Assembly: GCA_025350445.1 (NCBI GenBank)
Contig: JANXXV010000075.1
Coordinates: 1-19,177 of the forward strand
Reading direction: 5' to 3'
DNA length: 19,177 bases
Source: Bryobacteraceae bacterium
GTDB taxonomy: Bacteria > Acidobacteriota > Terriglobia > Bryobacterales > Bryobacteraceae
Shown here: positions 1 to 19,167 of the stretch, piece by piece
Position numbering within the stretch: the stretch's first letter is position 1
Layout: every line of letters begins with the position of its first letter
Notes under the pieces: model-generated
What the model was told of the DNA's origin: nothing
What the model saw: only the letters and a program-made list of their open reading frames with translations
Database searches by the model: none
Translations under genes and position numbers: made by a program

Positions 1-97
1 GCCGCGATCTTTCGATCACGGAAGGCTCGCCGGACCTCGTCGGGACGCTGCAAATCATCTTGCTTCAATGGGGCCGCGATCTTTCGATCACGGAAGG
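1..97 (-). CRISPR. Leader end of a type I-G CRISPR array (partial; continues left of the window)
   Basis: A complete 36-bp repeat lies at 62-97, and the last 25 bp of an identical repeat at 1-25. The spacer between them (26-61) is 36 bp, giving a 72-bp unit. Read on the minus strand, the repeat ends in CCCCATTGAAGC, which would leave the usual 8-nt handle AUUGAAGC on crRNA. It contains an 8-bp stem (CCGTGATC with GATCGCGG, one G-T wobble) and a GAAA loop. The wobble pairs only in minus-strand RNA, supporting minus-strand transcription, the same direction as the cas genes. The repeat at 62-97 would be the leader-proximal one. Only one spacer is fully visible and its target is not recognisable by eye. 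Confidence 0.95.
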
Positions 98-279: not shown

Positions 280-2040
280 CTACCGCGTTGTGAACACCGG
301 ATACTCCGCAATCTCTCCCTGCACCACCCGCGCCAAAAGCCGCACCTGAATCTCCAACAATCGCCGGTAACTCACCCTATAATCGAAAAGCGGATGCGTC
401 ACCAAGGAGTCCATCCGCAACTCGTACGCCCGGAAGAACCCCTTCCTCCCAGCCGCACTCAACGCCACCGCCGGCCCGGACTGCACAAAATCTTTCGGCG
501 TGATCATCCGCGTGTTAATCGCGTTCACAACCGCCGAATCCGCGATCAACGGCCGGAACGGCTCCATCAAGTCTAACGCCAAAGCAGGCCGCCCGAACCG
601 GGGCGCGTGATAAAACCCAATAAACGGATCAAAGCCCACCGCATAGCACGCAATCGTCAGATCTTTCGCCAGCATGCTGTAAGCCAGAGACAGCAACGCA
701 TTCACCGCATCCTTCGGCGGCCTCCGGTTTCGTGCCGAAAAGTCAAACCGGAATTGCGCCTGCTCTCCTCCCTCATCGTCCGCCTTGATCAGCCCCGGAA
801 AGTTCGAAAAGTAGATTCGCGCCGCGTTCCCCTCAATGCCCAGCAATTGCTCCAACCCGTTGGCCCGCTCCGCCGCCTCTGCCATCTGCTTCATCCCCAG
901 CAGCGCCTCGGGTTTTGGTTCCACATGATTGCGCTGAAGCATCGTGCGCTGATTTCGAATTTTCCCCGCCACCAGTTGACCAGCCACTGATACCTTGAAC
1001 CGCTCCGAATCCGCCAGCCGGAATTGCGACTGGCGCAGAAAAACATTCTTCGTGTTCAGCCCGCTCGTGATTCCATAGAACCACCCACCCTGCGAAAAGT
1101 AACAAATCGGAACATCGGCCTCGCACAACGTCTGGATCGCCTGCGTCGTCAACTGCACATTGCCCATCAGGTTCACTTGGCAGACCTCTCCGATGCGGAT
1201 CTCCTGCTTCAAGTCGTCCTTCTCGCGAATTTGCAGCACCTCGCCCGATTTCCCCACGCGCGTCCCCTGCGTATTTAGATAGACCGGCTTTCGTTCGCTT
1301 CGCGGCGTTACCAGCCTGCGGATCAGCACTTGCGCCGGCGTCCTTTCCTGCGGCGGTTCACCAAACAACAGCAGTTGCTCGTGCGCCGGACCGCCAAGCT
1401 GAATCGCGATCAGCGAATTCGTCTCGTCCGGCAGGCAGATGCCCACCATCGAACACGCCGGGCACTTCGGCGAATCCACCAGCGGCGAAGGCATAATCCC
1501 CAGCTTCGCCGTTTGCCACGCTTCTGCAATCAGACGCTCGGTCTCCGCCATTACGTCGGCGTCGAAGCGCACCCGGACACGTTGCCGGGTCTTCGCATAG
1601 TAGGCGACTCCCTCTTCGCACACATAGCCCGCCTCGCGCAGCACCAGGCCTTGAATCGCCAGTTGCACGCGGTCGCTCGGCCACAACTCCAGCCCATCTT
1701 TGGTTTCTCGCGGCTTCCCGTGTTTGTAGTCTACCGGCGTAACCACGCCGCCTACTGACTCCACCAGGTCCATCTTCGCGATCACCCGGCACCGTTCGCT
1801 CGCCAGTGTGACAGACCGGGAGTGAATCGTCTCGCCTTCCGCCGCTTCTTCCGGAGTCGCCAGCTTGGTGGGCTTGGCATCCACCTTCGCATGTTGCGCG
1901 CTGCCCTCAAGGGTGTCCACGCTTTCTCGAAACAGTCCCTCTACGAATTCGAAGAAGAACAGCCGTGGGCAATACACGAATTCGTTCACCATTCTGGCGG
2001 GCAGATAGTCCGGTAGCAGCCGTTCTTCGGAAGCGTCCAT
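280..2040 (-). CDS. cas4-cas1: Cas4-Cas1 fusion (spacer acquisition)
   Basis: This 586-aa fusion is the adaptation enzyme typical of type I-G/I-U. The Cas4 part (about 1-210) trims prespacers and reads the PAM. It keeps four iron-sulfur cysteines (C24 in YCPRLF, then C193, C196 and C202) and the nuclease residues D91 and D104-Y105-K106. The Cas1 integrase part (about 250-586) begins at PVYLNTQGTRVGKSG. It keeps the metal ligands E403 (GIEGNAAR), H478 (FYHAPRFGRP) and D490/E493 (LDLMEPFRP). Length and domain order are normal and no frameshift is seen. It lies 39 bp after cas2 as the last cas gene, with the array immediately beyond. In the characterised Geobacter sulfurreducens relative, such fusions select TTN PAMs. 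Confidence 0.96.
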   Translation of the reverse strand: MDASEERLLPDYLPARMVNEFVYCPRLFFFEFVEGLFRESVDTLEGSAQHAKVDAKPTKLATPEEAAEGETIHSRSVTLASERCRVIAKMDLVESVGGVVTPVDYKHGKPRETKDGLELWPSDRVQLAIQGLVLREAGYVCEEGVAYYAKTRQRVRVRFDADVMAETERLIAEAWQTAKLGIMPSPLVDSPKCPACSMVGICLPDETNSLIAIQLGGPAHEQLLLFGEPPQERTPAQVLIRRLVTPRSERKPVYLNTQGTRVGKSGEVLQIREKDDLKQEIRIGEVCQVNLMGNVQLTTQAIQTLCEADVPICYFSQGGWFYGITSGLNTKNVFLRQSQFRLADSERFKVSVAGQLVAGKIRNQRTMLQRNHVEPKPEALLGMKQMAEAAERANGLEQLLGIEGNAARIYFSNFPGLIKADDEGGEQAQFRFDFSARNRRPPKDAVNALLSLAYSMLAKDLTIACYAVGFDPFIGFYHAPRFGRPALALDLMEPFRPLIADSAVVNAINTRMITPKDFVQSGPAVALSAAGRKGFFRAYELRMDSLVTHPLFDYRVSYRRLLEIQVRLLARVVQGEIAEYPVFTTR

Positions 2041-2079: not shown

Positions 2080-3271
<1,192 letters not shown>

Positions 3272-3275
<4 letters not shown>

Positions 3276-6088
3276 AACTCCTCCTGCTCGCGACGAGACT
3301 GCACGCAGTCGGCTCGTCTGACGATTGCCTCAAGGTACGCAAGTCCCCATGCTCCGTACCGTGCGTTCAAAGACCAGAACCGGTCCACCCACCCGGAATC
3401 AAGTTGGTGGAGACGAGGCGCTGCATTCGCCGACAGCATCAACCCGTTATATCGAATACTCAATTCGGGCGCATCCGGATCATTCCAGACGGGAACGAAA
3501 GGACGTCCGAAGCCATGGTGGGTTCCGATTAGATGAATCACAAGATCGCGGTCGTGAGCACAATCTAGGGCGGAAGATTGCGAGACTAGCGCTACCGACG
3601 AAAACTCATGCCGAGCCCCTTTCGGGTATCCAGAACGTTTCTGCCTTTCCTTCAAAGTCTTGGGTGTAATCACTCCACCGCCCGGAGATTTGGCCAGTAG
3701 CTCCGATTCGCTTGCAACCTTAACTCCGGCAAGAAATGCCTGAAAGCGGCCGTCGCATTTGCCAAGATCGTGAAGTTGCGCCGTTAGCTCCAAGTCCTCA
3801 ATCAATTCGGCGGAGAGTCGAATCCCTTTTGCGAATATACGTGCAATCTCCCGGACTCCGTTGGTATGCGCAACCAGTGTGAATCTCTCAGTCAGCGAGG
3901 ATGAATCACCCTCGTCCGTTTCCTCGATCCGCATCTCCTTCAATCCCGCCCACAGCGATCCTGGAGGCTTCTTCAATTGTTTTCGCGAGAGAAGTACAAA
4001 CGACGATCCCGAAGGGTAGGGCGCAACCCTTGCGTCGGCGAGCATGGATCGTTGATCCCGAGCTGCTTGCGAGAACTCAACGAGCCAATCGAGCAACTCG
4101 GAACGTAGCTCTTTGGAATCCTCCCCGGCCTCAGTCGCTTTCTGGATCACTTCCAGGCGTGCCTTGAACTCATCCGCATTTTCAGGCCGCAGAACATCTG
4201 GATGGACACGAAGACGCGCCTTGCGCAAGCCTTGCTGTGCTGCCTCGGCCGTGCAGAGATCGCCAATATCGGGAACGGGGTCGGTAGATTCCGGATGCCA
4301 CCGGCCATCTTCGTCGCATCCGCCATAGACAGATGGAACAAGGATCGTAGCTCCCGGATAGAGTCTATCCCATTCAATCCGATCTGGGCCATTCCATGCA
4401 AGGCAACGCCGAAGCTTCTTACCGGGCTTATCGGATTCAGACCGGACTCCTTCGAGATCGGCTACCGCGGGTGGGTCTGACTCTTCCAGCCATCGGCGCG
4501 CCGCTCCTATCGGAACCGATAGAGTTTCACGAGTAACCGGTGGGGCGGCGGCTATTATCTCTTCCCACTCGTCCTCATTTCCGGGGTTGATGTCTGCGCG
4601 CCAGACTACCTGCACATCGGCGGAATCAAGTGCATCTGCGCCATGTAAAAACGGGGCGATGTCGGGATCGGGATCAGGTGTCGGATTAGTCTGCACCCAA
4701 GTGTCGATGTGAACGGGAAACATCAGAGGTGCAGATTGGCGCTCGCCTCTCAAAGCGTCCGAATTCGTCGACTTCAGTTTTTCCCGGAGAGCCAAAATGC
4801 CGAATTCAACTTTTCTGCGCCCGTCCTCAGTCGCCGCGACCGAATTCAGCCATCGCCATGTCGCGTCCAGCGCGCTCCCATAAATGGGATCCTTGCCATC
4901 CAGCGTTCCCTTGCGAAGCATAATTGCGGCGCTCGTCTTTCCTCTGAAACCAAGTCGGTCGAGACGTCCGAATCGCTGCTGAAGAGCGTCGATCGGCGCA
5001 GCTTCCGTGATAAGGGCGTCGAAATCGAGATTCGCTCCGACTTCTATGGTTTGAGTGGCAACCACGTATATCGGCTCTTCAGAAGCACGATCGCGCCCCG
5101 CTTGTATCCTCGGCAACCACTTCGCCATGAGCTGATCCCTGTCATACGGGCGAATGCGCCCAATAAGCAGAACAGATGACGCTTTCGGAAGCTGCATGAA
5201 AATAGCCCGAGCGGAGGCGATGCGATTGACAACGATCCCGACAACTCTAACGTTTGGGATCTTCATGAACTGCTGTGCCAACTTTGCGGCGTCGTTCTCG
5301 AAGCTTGCGGGTTCCAGGATCTCAGCCAACTTGGAAGCGGACCAACGCTTGCCCAGTTCCAAATTCGCAAAGTCGTTTGAATCCGGCACGAAAGCATCTC
5401 CGGTGGAGTTTGGTGTTGCCGACATCTCCACTAACTTCAATCGCGGAACTACGGTGCGCTGTGCTCGCGACTGAAATTGCCGGACGGCTTCAACGGTCTC
5501 GACAAACGGAGTGGACAAATGCGCTTCATCAAGGATGATTAGGGAATCGGTTCCCGTCAGGCCTGCATGAACGGGACGTTGCGATTCACTTAAGCCATAA
5601 CCCCGGAACAGCAGGCGCGATCCAATCTGATCTACGGTGGAAACGCAAATAAGTGGTTGGTTCGGTGCGTCAGCCCATGTCTGATCACGGTAAACGCCGC
5701 CGCGAAGCGCGGTCACTCGCAACGGAACTTCGGTGCCGAACCGCTTCAATCTCTGAGCGACAGCGGAAACAGTTGGGGTGCGGGCGGCTTCGAGTGCGCT
5801 AGCGATCCCCCTTGCATGCTCGGCTGCTTCGTCTACGACCACACGGCGATCTATAACGAAAAAAGTCCGGAGCGCGGCCGCGCGATCGCACGCATCAATG
5901 TCGGCTTCGAGCGCGAGCAAGAAAACCGCAATATCGATGAGAGATGTCTTACCGGAACTGGTCGGCAGGGAGATGGTTCCCGGCCATCGGCGCGACGCAT
6001 AGACCGTTTCCGCCAACCGCACCTGCCACGGAAACGGCTCGTAACCGTGAACCTCTTTGTAGTAGGAGGCAAAATCATGGATCGTCAT
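3272..6088 (-). CDS. cas3: Cas3 helicase-nuclease with C-terminal HD domain (type I-G)
   Basis: A 938-aa effector nuclease-helicase recruited after target binding to unwind and degrade DNA. The SF2 helicase comes first: Walker A LPTSSGKTS (41-49), DEAH 187-190, MSATP (222-226) and motif VI QQRFGRLDR (370-378). The HD nuclease is C-terminal, the reverse of the common type I order and normal for I-G/I-U. It keeps H741, H773-D774 (LHDLGKCDGRF), H827 (GARHEFSS), H857-H858 (IGTHHGFGRP) and D927 (RRADCVQSR). All key residues are present, so it should be active. The start overlaps the csb2 stop by ATGA and its stop overlaps the next start by ATGA, indicating tight translational coupling. Confidence 0.96.
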
Positions 6089-7422
6089 GATTGCCTCTGA
6101 GCGGGCCGGAACAACCCTAGTCCGAAGTATCTTCCCGCGCCAAGGACCAACGGACCTTCGATTTCCTCGTCAAAAGTGATCGTTACATGGACTCCCCAGC
6201 GCGGTTTTTCCGAAGAACTGCGCAAAAGGCGGAACTGAGGGACCGGAGGCACTCCAGGCACATCGGACCAAGGACTCGTTTCAATAGCCGTTGGTCTCGG
6301 TAGCCCTACGCGTTCACAACTGCGGGTGATAATCATTTCGACAGAAAGCTTAGCCTTCGGGAACTGATCGAGCAGTACAGGAGTTACGCTCTTCCAAATC
6401 CGTGCTGGCTTGCACCAGGTGGCTGCACGAAGCGTTTCGGGAAGGGGCTCTTCGTCGGCAAGTTCGACTATCCATTTGCCTAGGTCCCCCGTTAGCGCGA
6501 TCTGGTTCAGTGCTGCCGCAACCTCGAACACCCGCTTGGCCTGTTGTGGATCGCGCTCGCGTGGAATCAATAACGCGCACCCCATGATTCTTCCGTCTGC
6601 GTAAGTCCCAGATGTGAACGGCAATGCTACGAAGGCGCAATGTGGGCCCGGTACGTGCCCATGGAGGAGATCGGGGATCGTATCGTCGTCACCGGCAAGA
6701 GACATCAAGGCGTTGCGCAACGCTTCTGTGAGGGTGAGAGTCGATTCATTGGTTAGCGGGTAACCTGTCCGGCGGCGGAAAATGATCATGTCCGAAAAAA
6801 AACTGGGGTGCCGTTTTGGGTCGCTGACGCTCACGCGCCCGTAACGTTGTTGTGCGGCGCGAGGATCCCAACGGCCGGAATCATGAAGCCTTTGAAGTTC
6901 TTCAAGCCTCCCGATTGCCGGCACTCGCAGTACCATGTCCCCGGTGTCGGAAGGCACCAACGTTGCGGGGGGCACCTGCTGCGTCGTACGGATCCTTACA
7001 AACGAAGCGGATTTTCCAAGGTATGCCACCCGCGCGGCGATGCTATCCAGTGCGGTAGCGATTTCCGGTGAAGGAGCAGCGTCGTGCCAGATGAAATAGA
7101 CCGGCGAGTCAGACAATGTAGTCGCCGGAAATTGGCGCGGCTGCTTTGTGTGTATTCCATTCTTGTCAATGTAGTTCGTTGGAACAAAACCGGAATAGCG
7201 CGCGCACTCCTCGGAGTCCGGAACGGAGATTGCCGGGCTCGGCTGCTGCTCAAGCCACTGCAGCGCCGCCGTGGCTTCGGAGCCCATCTCGGTTTCAAAG
7301 CATGCGGACGCAAGAGCGGAAAACAAACGCGCAGGATGAGGTGGCCATTCGGCTTCACCTCGATCTCGAAAGTCCCCGGCATACGCCTTGCTCATAAGAT
7401 ACTCAACTTCGAGAGCAAACAT
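6085..7422 (-). CDS. csb2: Csb2, Cas5-Cas6 fusion subunit of type I-G Cascade
   Basis: A 445-aa protein matching the Csb2 (GSU0054-type) family, which combines a Cas5-like part with a Cas6-like crRNA-processing part. The N-terminus has the typical EWPPHPARLFSALASA (25-40). WKSVTPVLLD (343-352) is also characteristic. The C-terminus has HVTITF (412-417) followed by the glycine-rich RNA-binding loop GPLVLGAGRYFGLGLF (423-438). It would cut the repeat transcript, stay bound to the crRNA stem and cap the Cascade backbone. GGAGGA sits 8 nt before the ATG at 7422. It lies 24 bp after csb1 and overlaps cas3 by 4 bp. Assignment is from motifs and gene order. Confidence 0.92.
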   Translation of the reverse strand: MFALEVEYLMSKAYAGDFRDRGEAEWPPHPARLFSALASACFETEMGSEATAALQWLEQQPSPAISVPDSEECARYSGFVPTNYIDKNGIHTKQPRQFPATTLSDSPVYFIWHDAAPSPEIATALDSIAARVAYLGKSASFVRIRTTQQVPPATLVPSDTGDMVLRVPAIGRLEELQRLHDSGRWDPRAAQQRYGRVSVSDPKRHPSFFSDMIIFRRRTGYPLTNESTLTLTEALRNALMSLAGDDDTIPDLLHGHVPGPHCAFVALPFTSGTYADGRIMGCALLIPRERDPQQAKRVFEVAAALNQIALTGDLGKWIVELADEEPLPETLRAATWCKPARIWKSVTPVLLDQFPKAKLSVEMIITRSCERVGLPRPTAIETSPWSDVPGVPPVPQFRLLRSSSEKPRWGVHVTITFDEEIEGPLVLGAGRYFGLGLFRPAQRQS

Positions 7423-7446: not shown

Positions 7447-8631
7447 TTAGCCAGCTTCCTCAGTTCCCGCCGATTGATCGCTGAGCTGAACCAACTGCAG
7501 AAGCTTGTCTGTCGGTGTCAGTTTAATCGGTCCGGCGTTCCACACTAGTCCCTCCGACTTTGCTGCGGCTAAGGCTTCGTCAAGAAGTTCCTTTACCATC
7601 GACGAGTCTGCTGAGAAGGTTTCGGGCTCGCCGAGAACGCGGCGAATAACTTCGAACTGCGGAGCATGAGAAGCAACGAGGTGACAACGCGAGCGGAGAT
7701 CAAGGCCTTCCTCGCAGGCAAGCAGGAATGCGTATAGCCCTAGCGCCCCTAGCACCGCACGCCCAGCGGCGTCCCGGTGTGGGTTGACCGTGCCATCGTC
7801 CAGAGGGAAACGTGTTCGGCGAAGCTGCGTCAAGGACAAGACAACCGTTTGCAGAGCCTCACGGATCGTCACGCCGCCTGGTGTTATCGAAGGTGCGATG
7901 TTGCCGTGGTTGATTTCCGACGGCTTCCCTTTCTTATTGAACAGCAAAGCTTTCCCTTTGACCTTCTCAGCCTTCGCCTCGTCAAGTGTCCAAAACTCTT
8001 CGGCACTGGCGGCCTTATAGATTACGCCTTCGCTGGCCTTGATTCCTAGCGGATCAAGACGGGATGACGTCCGAACTCCCACTACAGCGTCTAAGCCGAC
8101 AATTTCCGATCCAATGGCGCGGGGTACCTTTGCGCCGTTTACACCCGCTCCACTTTGTGAGTCCCATGTTCCGAACAATAGGGCCGTGGGACAGAAACGG
8201 AAGAACGCCGTCGCGTTCGCAGTGCGGGAAGCTACGAGGTCTTTACCATTGAGCGACTGCCGAAACGGCTTACCGTCCCAAAGGGAATCACGGAAAATCG
8301 CGTCATGCACCCGGTGGGGAACATCGAGTGCAGTAAGCGTCCCATGGCCCGGAATCTCAAGCTGGAAAAGCGGTAAGTCGAGCTTGCCGTCCCGGCAAGC
8401 ATTTAATAACGCTAATTCCATACGATTTGCTTGTGACTGGATTGAATCGAGAAGCACTGCGTCAACACGCTGCCCATTAAGCCACCGCGACTCGGTAGCA
8501 TATTTACCAGATTCATAAGTGGGGGGGAAGACCTTCGAGGTAGGTCCTCCCACGGGCTCCAAGCGAATGTTTGCCCGGATTGCCGTCACGTCACCAGTGA
8601 CATATTCTGCAAACTTCTTGTACAAACTCAT
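7447..8631 (-). CDS. csb1: Csb1, Cas7-type backbone subunit of type I-G Cascade
   Basis: A 394-aa Csb1 (GSU0053-type Cas7), which polymerises along the crRNA spacer to form the Cascade backbone. Family motifs include RLEPVGG (23-29), FPPTYESGKY (35-44), VLLDSIQSQANRMELAL (59-75) and PTALLFGTWDSQSG (148-161), followed by PRAIGSEIVG. The ATG at 8631 is preceded by AGAGGAG five nt away, a good ribosome binding site that fixes the start. It is the first gene of the cas operon. The roughly 160 bp upstream carry the cas promoter region and the site matched by the mini-CRISPR guide. Confidence 0.94.
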   Translation of the reverse strand: MSLYKKFAEYVTGDVTAIRANIRLEPVGGPTSKVFPPTYESGKYATESRWLNGQRVDAVLLDSIQSQANRMELALLNACRDGKLDLPLFQLEIPGHGTLTALDVPHRVHDAIFRDSLWDGKPFRQSLNGKDLVASRTANATAFFRFCPTALLFGTWDSQSGAGVNGAKVPRAIGSEIVGLDAVVGVRTSSRLDPLGIKASEGVIYKAASAEEFWTLDEAKAEKVKGKALLFNKKGKPSEINHGNIAPSITPGGVTIREALQTVVLSLTQLRRTRFPLDDGTVNPHRDAAGRAVLGALGLYAFLLACEEGLDLRSRCHLVASHAPQFEVIRRVLGEPETFSADSSMVKELLDEALAAAKSEGLVWNAGPIKLTPTDKLLQLVQLSDQSAGTEEAG

Positions 8632-8733
8632 GAGATCTCCTCTATCTTGGTATCCAGGTGCATATTTACTGGTACGCCGGACACCGGTCCTTTTACGGCT
8701 CGTTCATGATGTTCTCAAGTGGGGAGAGTGTCA

Positions 8734-8772
8734 ACCAGGATTTTCTCTAAATACTCCTTGAACTCACAATAA
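8734..8772 (-). promoter_or_regulatory. Predicted Cascade target site (partial protospacer plus TTA PAM) in the cas promoter
   Basis: Read on the minus strand from 8769, this site matches the mini-CRISPR spacer (8832 onward) at positions 1-5, 7-8, 10-11, 13-17 and 20-24: 19 of the first 24. Mismatches are at 6, 9, 12, 18 and 19, and beyond 24 the match disappears (1 of 12). Positions 6, 12 and 18 are those flipped out and not read by type I Cascade. TTA (8772-8770) lies immediately 5' of the match and fits the TTN PAM known for a type I-U relative. Pairing limited to the PAM-proximal part would favour binding without cutting. The functional role is inferred. Confidence 0.8.
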
Positions 8773-8786
8773 GTGTGTGTTATCGA
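8758..8786 (+). promoter_or_regulatory. Candidate promoter of the mini-CRISPR RNA
   Basis: TTGAAC (8758-8763) and TATCGA (8781-8786) are spaced by 17 bp on the plus strand, predicting a start near 8793, just before the repeat-like element at 8796. The -35 lies inside the guide-matched site (8734-8772), so Cascade bound there would also hinder this promoter. The -10 is weak (3 of 6 to consensus). Confidence 0.5.
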
Positions 8787-8800
8787 AGAACAAGTTCTTC
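8785..8800. repeat. Perfect 16-bp dyad GAAGAACAAGTTCTTC
   Basis: Two 7-bp arms (8785-8791 and 8794-8800) are exact inverted copies separated by AA. The dyad overlaps the plus-strand -10, the minus-strand TTGTTC hexamer, and the first five bases of the repeat-like element. It could be an operator for a dimeric regulator shared by the two divergent transcripts. No regulator gene adjoins it. Confidence 0.6.
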
Positions 8801-8902
8801 CGTGATCAGAAGATCGCGGCCCCATTGAAGCTTGTGCGTGCATGGAGTTCTTAGATTGCGAGACGTAAATTCCGGGGTCCCAGACCCCGGCCTCATTCTT
8901 GA
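8796..8902 (+). ncRNA. CreR/CreA-like mini-CRISPR (repeat, 36-nt spacer, degenerate repeat)
   Basis: The first repeat-like part (8796-8831) matches the array repeat at 33 of 36 positions. The stem halves CCGTGATC/GATCGCGG and the handle ATTGAAGC are intact; the three changes are the first base and two loop bases. A 36-nt spacer (8832-8867) follows, the same length as the array spacer. The second repeat-like part (about 8868-8902) is degenerate but keeps the fold: an 8-bp stem CCGGGGTC/GACCCCGG (8872-8879, 8883-8890), a 3-nt loop, then CCTCATT in place of CCCCATT. It points away from the cas operon, opposite to the main array. The spacer matches the cas promoter. Csb2 should process it like a pre-crRNA. 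It resembles known CreR guides that make Cascade repress cas genes; an old array remnant is the alternative. Confidence 0.82.
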
Positions 8903-9038
8903 GGTGATGTAATGCGGCTCAAGATTACCGTTCCCAAAAAAGTGAAAACTCAATTTCCCGCCGAATCATAAATTTACGGCAAATTCCCTCTCCACCCGGC
9001 ACGGCCCTCGCCTACTCTACACGCAGGAGGCAACACCC
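8903..9038 (+). other. Intergenic region before the 213-aa gene
   Basis: This 136-bp stretch starts right after a 5-bp hairpin CCTCA-TTCT-TGAGG (8891-8904) that adjoins the second repeat-like stem. It ends with a strong ribosome binding site AGGAGG (9025-9030), eight nt before the ATG at 9039. An A-rich segment lies around 8934-8948. No convincing promoter pair or small gene was found. Confidence 0.4.
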
Positions 9039-9680
9039 ATGTCGTCACGTCAGAAGAGAAAGATCGCACGCACCAACGGCGCAAAATCCGCCGGCACAAA
9101 ATCCCCGGAAGGACTCCACAAATCCTCCCAAAACGCGCTCCGTCACGGATTAACCGCCAAAACCCTCGTCCTTTCCAATGAATCCCAATCGAAATTCGAC
9201 GAATTACTCGACTCTTTCATCCAGAAATTCCTACCCCAAGACGCCGTCGAACTCGAACTCGTCACCGAAATGGTTGCCGCCCGCTGGCGTCTCCGCCGCA
9301 TCTGGCTCATCCAAACCACTACCCTCGACTACCAAATGGACAAAATGGAAGAAGAACTTTCCGGAAAATTCACCCTCCTCACCGAACCCACCCGCCTCAG
9401 CCTCGCCTTCACTACCCTGGCAAACCAGGAAAAGTCTCTCCAACTCCTCTTGCGCTATGAATCCGCCTATCGCCGCATGTACAACCAGGCTCAACGCGAC
9501 CTGCTAAAGCTCCGCGAATCAGAACCTTCCAAGAAAATACCAAACGAACCCAAACCAGCTTCCAAACCCACACGGGAAGCCACAATCCGCACCCCGAAGC
9601 CGCCAAAACTACCAGCCGAAACACCACAAAGCCAACCGGAACCGCTCTCACACCCCGAAACGGACACCAAAGTCGAATGA
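9039..9680 (+). CDS. Unknown protein of the NGAKS...SSQNALRHGL family
   Basis: A 213-aa basic protein with a strong AGGAGG Shine-Dalgarno at the right spacing. Its N-terminus, NGAKSAGTKSPEGLHKSSQNALRHGL (residues 14-39, split as NGAKSAGTKSPEGL and HKSSQNALRHGL), is the signature of an uncharacterised family I recall as abundant, often in many copies, in Solibacter-like Acidobacteriota and Planctomycetota. The middle (about 60-150) is charged and predicted helical. The last 50 residues are a proline/lysine/threonine-rich tail that looks disordered. No enzyme motif, signal peptide or membrane segment is visible. Binding to nucleic acid is plausible from its charge but unproven. It sits between the mini-CRISPR and gatB with no evident link to either. 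Confidence 0.8.
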   Translation: MSSRQKRKIARTNGAKSAGTKSPEGLHKSSQNALRHGLTAKTLVLSNESQSKFDELLDSFIQKFLPQDAVELELVTEMVAARWRLRRIWLIQTTTLDYQMDKMEEELSGKFTLLTEPTRLSLAFTTLANQEKSLQLLLRYESAYRRMYNQAQRDLLKLRESEPSKKIPNEPKPASKPTREATIRTPKPPKLPAETPQSQPEPLSHPETDTKVE

Positions 9681-17160: not shown

Positions 17161-17452
17161 GGCCAGTGACATCTTGCGAAAACGTGGCTGGCATTACCAC
17201 GGAAGCTGGAGCCAACTCGCTCAATCGCCGGACCTCAAAGGCAAGGCGAAAACTTTCCAAGCCTTCTACATCAGGGACGCTGTTGGCGGCAACTATGCTC
17301 ACTATCATCCTCGTGGACGGGTGCAGTTTGAGAACTAGGCAATGCCATGCAAAAGCAGCGGACGGGCGGTGGTCGCCTCCGTATGCCGGTTCGGAATAAC
17401 CAAACGGGCGAACAGACTCCACCAGTTGTAGATTAGCTGTACTGTGTCAAGG
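17161..17452. other. Gene-poor segment between kinase remnant and esterase
   Basis: About 290 bp with only unsupported frames on either strand. The single recognisable item is the left copy of a 48-bp inverted duplication at 17339-17386. The rest looks like decayed coding sequence of unknown origin. Confidence 0.5.
17339..17386 (+). repeat. 48-bp duplication, left copy (inverted relative to 19120-19167)
   Basis: This copy matches the reverse complement of 19120-19167 at 41 of 48 positions. Most differences fall at the third codon position of the frame reading HTEATT-x-RPLLLHG-x-A (minus strand here, plus strand in the right copy), so both copies seem to derive from a once-coding sequence. 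In this copy the frame ends in TAG directly afterwards. I do not recognise the protein. Confidence 0.7.
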
Positions 17453-19119: not shown

Positions 19120-19167
19120 CATACAGAGGCGACCACCACACGGCCACTGCTTTTGCATGGCGTAGCC
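19120..19167 (-). repeat. 48-bp duplication, right copy
   Basis: Inverted relative to 17339-17386 (41 of 48 identical). It begins just after the transposase-like similarity ends, so it may mark a recombination junction or an element end. The sequence continues beyond the window. Confidence 0.7.

Follow-up and report, generated by a model that had tools for sequence, protein, structure and literature searches.

The window, by which we mean the whole 19,177-base stretch of Bryobacteraceae DNA analysed here, carries a minus-strand cas operon with csb1 as its first gene and, divergent from csb1, a plus-strand two-repeat mini-CRISPR at 8796-8900 (Table 1). Judged by its sequence matches the operon is of type I-G, with csb1, csb2, cas3g, a Cas8g of the short form, cas4/cas1 and cas2 all present. 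The closest Csb1 proteins are 83, 70 and 61% identical to that of the window. Type I-G is called the least well understood type I subtype in the abstract of the paper on the I-G structure. Elsewhere in the window, the two copies of a 48-nt inverted repeat (17338-17385 and 19120-19167) are 85% complementary and have 1.7 kb between them.

Table 1. Features of the cas operon, the csb1 upstream region and the mini-CRISPR in the window.
Feature	Position	Strand	Remarks
Start of ordinary CRISPR array	1-97	-	One full repeat, one spacer, partial second repeat
cas4/cas1 fusion	280-2040	-	NF049935
cas2	2080-2370	-	TIGR01573; Cas2g
Short Cas8g-type protein	2352-3275	-	PADLOC Cas8g, E 2.7e-68; NF049934 ("Cas3-extension family" in NCBIfam)
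cas3g	3272-6088	-	TIGR02621
csb2	6085-7422	-	TIGR02165; Cas5-Cas6 fusion, predicted transcript cutter
csb1/cas7g	7447-8631	-	TIGR02570, PF09617
Predicted sigma-70-like csb1 promoter	8706-8734	-	TTGACA 8734-8729, 17 nt, CATCAT 8711-8706; 10/12 consensus
Weaker promoter candidate	starts 8718	-	TTGAGA-17-TAAAAG
Target	8734-8772	-	TTA PAM 8772-8770; 36-nt protospacer 8769-8734; paired part 8769-8746
R1, ectopic CRISPR repeat	8796-8831	+	33/36 identical to array repeat; detected as inverted repeat
8-nt handle	8824-8831	+	ATTGAAGC; 3′ end of R1
Guide	8832-8867	+	36 nt
Predicted mature guide RNA	8824-8894	+	71 nt, from the Csb2 cleavage rule
R2, second repeat	8868-8900	+	Perfect 8-bp stem; CCTCATT retained, GAAGC end gone
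Terminator-like hairpin, as first listed	8872-8890	+	Within R2

The mini-CRISPR consists of a repeat (R1), a guide and a second repeat (R2). In sequence it has the build of a crRNA-like gene, with a guide enclosed by CRISPR repeat-like sequences and a position adjoining the cas genes. R2, which the first-pass annotation of this DNA did not mention, closes the mini-CRISPR and gives the guide its length of 36 nt. Two features set the element apart from an ordinary array: the stem sequence of R2 is unlike that of R1, and the guide matches local cas upstream DNA. The RNA from 8790 to 8906 folds better than its shuffles (z -3.0, with 1 of 200 shuffles equally good), and no Rfam family was matched. 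Csb2 is described as cutting 4 nt 3′ of the hairpin base, which leaves an 8-nt handle, and the type I-G effector, which has been reconstituted, as having no Cas5 at the 5′ handle (PMC9638904). On the same strand, 3′ of the mini-CRISPR, lies a 213-aa ORF (9039-9680) that has no NCBIfam, Pfam or PADLOC match.

The first part of the guide matches a site upstream of csb1. Guide bases 8832-8855 and the minus-strand site 8769-8746 are identical at 19 of 24 positions, with mismatches at 6, 9, 12, 18 and 19, exactly as the first-pass annotation had aligned them, and the TTA that it placed at the PAM position is indeed found there. Similarity also ends as abruptly after position 24 as had been stated, guide positions 25-36 agreeing at 1 of 12. 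Type I-G is reported to use a TTN PAM and to flip out every sixth base (PMC9638904), and outside the multiples of six 18 of 20 guide positions match the target. The next-best other site in the window reaches 13/20. Against the 200-nt region 8632-8831, 5000 letter-shuffled guides gave a maximum of 15/20, and a binomial estimate for this region is about 6e-7 (p = 0.25) or 1e-5 (p = 0.30). The earlier judgement that chance agreement is very unlikely is borne out by these values.

The target lies in the csb1 upstream region and extends to the predicted promoter. The first-pass annotation had the guide matching the cas promoter itself. Its placement upstream of csb1 stands, but pairing stops at 8746, which leaves 11 nt to the -35-like box, and this box is touched only by the full 36-nt protospacer, whose last base is the first base of TTGACA. 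What is present is a partial match that runs from guide position 1 into the predicted cas promoter region next to a proper PAM.

The two divergent genes flank the target, which is 62-63 nt upstream of the guide, and a complex bound there might mainly repress the divergent promoter of the mini-CRISPR itself and so form a loop on guide RNA supply. The plus strand has no clear promoter for the mini-CRISPR, the best candidate having 8/12 consensus matches, whereas on the minus strand the TTGACA box abuts the protospacer, and we consider such a loop very improbable as the main function. A double effect, on the mini-CRISPR promoter and on the cas genes, is possible.

A further reading takes the element for a CreA-type antitoxin, in which the target promoter would drive a small toxin (RNA or protein) that Cascade silences, leaving the cell addicted to CRISPR. 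Haloarchaeal CreA likewise has two degenerate repeats, pairs at guide positions 1-5 and 7-11 and uses a TTC PAM (PMC8501985). The window element shares with CreTA/CreA the repeat-like pair enclosing a guide with pairing at 1-5 and 7-11, the retained PAM and the freedom of positions 6 and 12 (PMC8501985, PMC9458426). In several relatives, moreover, additional ORFs separate the target from csb1, and one of these, in L094, is weakly Cas2-like. What CreA represses, however, is a toxin gene, and the window target precedes csb1, which is the first convincing ORF after it; the single other ORF of at least 40 aa in between encodes 42 aa and starts opposite the mini-CRISPR. Reckoned from the predicted promoter, csb1 transcription would start near 8699 and the leader would be about 70 nt long. 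A CreA-type role in the window is unlikely in our judgement, although a toxin in the form of an RNA is possible there.

We surveyed the upstream regions of related csb1 genes for the same arrangement. The loci comprised the best 80 of 344 relatives in genome contigs and 118 from whole genomes. From 199 sequences including the window we removed 1 without a csb1 match, 27 duplicates, 31 with a weak Csb1 (E not below 1e-25), 4 with less than 300 nt upstream and L070, which left 135 loci. Wherever a handle-like sequence occurred upstream of csb1, we treated the 36 nt that follow the 8-nt handle as a guide and scored its best match up to 350 nt away by a running sum from position 1 (match +1, mismatch -1.5, multiples of six skipped; threshold 10), a PAM being required only in some runs. 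The scoring was fixed after the first 130 loci had been examined, and the extension contributed 4 of the 27 matches described below. L031 and L106 belong to an earlier 25-match set and lie outside the 27, L031 because its score of 9.0 is below 10 and L106 (10.0) because its Csb1 match is weak. The least certain of the 27 are L069 (10.5, 309 nt away) and L040 (244 nt away). A first survey without a PAM requirement was topped by L070, where a repetitive upstream stretch matches itself. Requiring a good R1 hairpin found 4 loci only; it missed much because R1 has a perfect stem of at least 6 bp in just 4 of the 27, as against 20 of 27 for R2. Alignment of array repeats to upstream DNA often picks R2 instead.

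Matches between guide and csb1 upstream DNA recur in relatives and come with the expected PAM. The handle ATTGAAG occurs at 93 sites in 66 loci and, with no PAM required, yields 27 matches of at least 10 in 27 loci, the window included. All 27 have a TT PAM although none was demanded, and the third PAM base is spread over A (10), C (7), T (6) and G (4), which fits a TTN PAM. Permuted guides at the same sites gave 1.30 matches per run (26 in 20 runs, 9 of them with TT); the TT cases may be explained by shuffles that leave a guide at its home locus. A control handle, ATTGA without AG, gave 10 matches in 9 loci from 455 sites in 116 loci, none with TT; its permuted guides gave 3.65 per run, fewer than the 10 observed. 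With TT required at all 808 handle-like sites, 27 loci reach 10 compared with 0.38 per guide permutation (50 permutations), and at a threshold of 12.5 there are 20 loci compared with 0.10. None of 454 ordinary array spacers from 34 loci reaches 10 against its own csb1 upstream region. On the strength of the shuffles, the guide permutations and the unrequired TT PAM we rejected chance similarity, whose probability we regard as negligible.

The guides differ among loci, the most alike pair (L096 and L152) sharing 23 of 36 positions, and each fits its own upstream DNA, which is the guide-promoter covariation that the first-pass annotation had proposed to look for. An R2-type hairpin stands at the right distance from 26 of the 27 matched sites, compared with 11 of the 66 other ATTGAAG sites, and R2 as a plain terminator was rejected on this distribution. 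The same annotation had named conserved elements lacking a guide-promoter match as the finding that would speak against it. Among the 37 ATTGAAG sites with an R2-type hairpin, 26 have a match with a TT PAM within 350 nt, and three more (L031, L063 and L116) match at 871, 857 and 427 nt when a TT PAM is required. These three are R1-guide-R2 elements whose TT-PAM matches are distant. Two of the other eight sites belong to a true array (L023, plus strand), the one in L091 has the look of an element lacking a target, and the remaining five R2-type sites without a match look like chance occurrences. The distribution is patchy, as 108 of the 135 loci gave no match in the survey, including those of the close relatives L006 and L074.

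The matches follow a six-base rhythm. When multiples of six are exempt from scoring, 27 matches reach at least 10 and 21 at least 12, compared with 19 and 12 under no exemption and with 7-13 and 0-4 under the other five exemption phases. Plain scoring, with nothing exempt, finds 25 sites of at least 14/20 with a TT PAM, 24 of them among the 27 and the last in L034, which passes at 14/20 but does not pass the main score. In these 25 sites, positions 6, 12 and 18 are mismatched 19, 15 and 18 times and positions 5, 7, 11 and 13 only 0, 1, 2 and 0 times. The proposal that the window mismatches at 6, 12 and 18 are flipped-out positions thus gains from the relatives, where mismatches cluster at the same places. 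In the earlier 25 matches, for which these positions were unscored, guide and target differ there in 20, 19 and 20 of 25, close to the three quarters expected without constraint. Matches end at position 17 in 12 of the 27 and at position 23 in 5, both being ends of five-base segments. As a separate observation, the 25 plain-scored pairs have mismatches also raised at positions 9 (9/25) and 15 (6/25), and position 3 has 4; these are the middle positions of five-base segments, and phase-3 exemption was the second best (13 matches).

This pattern bears on the view that the element is a functionless remnant, a spacer of self origin left behind in a decaying fragment of array. The handle end of R2 has been lost and the match is partial, as decay would have it. 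The loss of matching is, however, non-random, falling at multiples of six and past segment ends, all 27 sites retain the TT PAM, and R2 has lost sequence only 3′ of the predicted cut. We give an inert relic hardly any weight.

The match, the PAM, the six-base mismatch rhythm and the flanking repeats are present in the window, and the same arrangement is found in 26 other csb1 loci. In support of the first-pass annotation, which had Cascade repressing its own operon, we predict with considerable confidence that the mini-CRISPR guide loads the type I-G Cascade of its own locus at the site upstream of csb1 and thereby represses the cas operon. Csb2 would cut the transcript at R1 and R2 to yield an RNA of about 71 nt. 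Cascade carrying this RNA would pair with about 24 nt from the PAM, its full footprint would reach the TTGACA box, and RNA polymerase would be blocked at the -35 box or immediately upstream of it. Given the 11-nt gap between paired part and box, the block would depend on how far the entire complex extends. With no pairing in the PAM-distal third, Cas3 would not be recruited and the chromosome would stay uncut. True crRNAs or anti-CRISPRs that occupy Cascade would free the promoter, by analogy with CreR of other subtypes, for which release by crRNA competition or by anti-CRISPRs is described (PMC12737573, PMC13131331). With guide, PAM and promoter all defined, the element offers a directly testable case of type I-G self-control. 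Should anti-CRISPRs relieve repression here as they do in other CreR systems, the csb1 promoter would in effect sense them. The 26 other natural guide-target pairs reveal which guide positions are kept paired in nature.

On its sequence features, the mini-CRISPR is very probably a cas-regulating RNA (CreR) of type I-G. The primary CreR paper is reportedly that of Liu et al. (2023), and Shmakov et al. (2023) are said to describe, for many type I systems, crRNA-like mini-arrays, isolated pairs of repeats whose guides have partial complementarity to cas promoters. The literature searched, which did not cover these two papers, contained no case of a type I-G CreR, and no account of self-control of type I-G expression was found in it. 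CreR has been named for types I-B, I-E and V-A (PMC13131331). The window element is like CreR in its predicted crRNA-like RNA and in a guide that partly matches the predicted cas promoter region; no convincing ORF for a toxin was found between target and csb1. It differs in its type I-G effector, Csb1/Csb2, and its TTN PAM. Racr is likewise a CRISPR repeat outside an array, but is described as a viral solitary repeat that traps Cas proteins (PMC10651486), whereas the window element has two repeats, a matching guide and a position at the cas locus. A structured-RNA survey lists a palindromic candidate, CRISPRCas_50, beside I-G arrays and about 50 bases from the array (PMC9067536), a location unlike that of the window mini-CRISPR.

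The matched loci are taxonomically scattered and vary in the gene that follows the target. Those with a named source are from Bryobacteraceae or Solibacter (L001, L002, L069), Planctomycetota (L011, L020, L050, L051), Acidimicrobiia (L026, L066), Caldilineaceae (L027), Thiococcus pfennigii (L040), Nitrospira (L056) and an alphaproteobacterium (L075), which we take to span six phyla; the remaining 13 matched relatives come from the whole-genome set. The element is opposite to csb1 in 25 of the 27 loci. The distance from target to csb1 is 303-1052 nt in 19 of the 27, and in those loci a gene other than csb1 may be the one repressed. The ORF that separates target from csb1 encodes a sigma-70 region 4, scored above the Pfam cut-off in L050 and L051 and just below it in L011; at these three loci the guide may hold down a sigma factor on which the operon depends. 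If so, a cas-linked sigma factor under CreR control would make a two-step switch. Similar sigma-70 region 4 pieces were seen by eye in L020, and the ORF between target and csb1 in L031 has no sigma domain in Pfam. Taken more broadly, RNA-guided self-control may be built into type I-G across at least six phyla, with guides that keep changing so as to track the promoter on which the cas genes depend, be it that of the sigma-factor gene as in Planctomycetota, where free Cascade would throttle the sigma switch above its own operon. We offer this wider picture tentatively and put it at somewhat below even chances.

Small ORFs precede csb1 in other relatives. L094 has a 77-aa ORF 298-65 nt upstream of csb1 that is weakly Cas2-like (PADLOC E 5.8e-5), and by eye a 69-aa ORF in L150 resembles it. 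The small ORFs of L150 and L092 have no PADLOC match. Those of L094 and L150 could be the genes repressed there, and for L094 an antitoxin role is possible. In L040 the mini-CRISPR has the direction of csb1, with the guide about 106 nt and the target about 350 nt upstream of it; if the two are co-transcribed, Csb2 would cut the csb1 leader.
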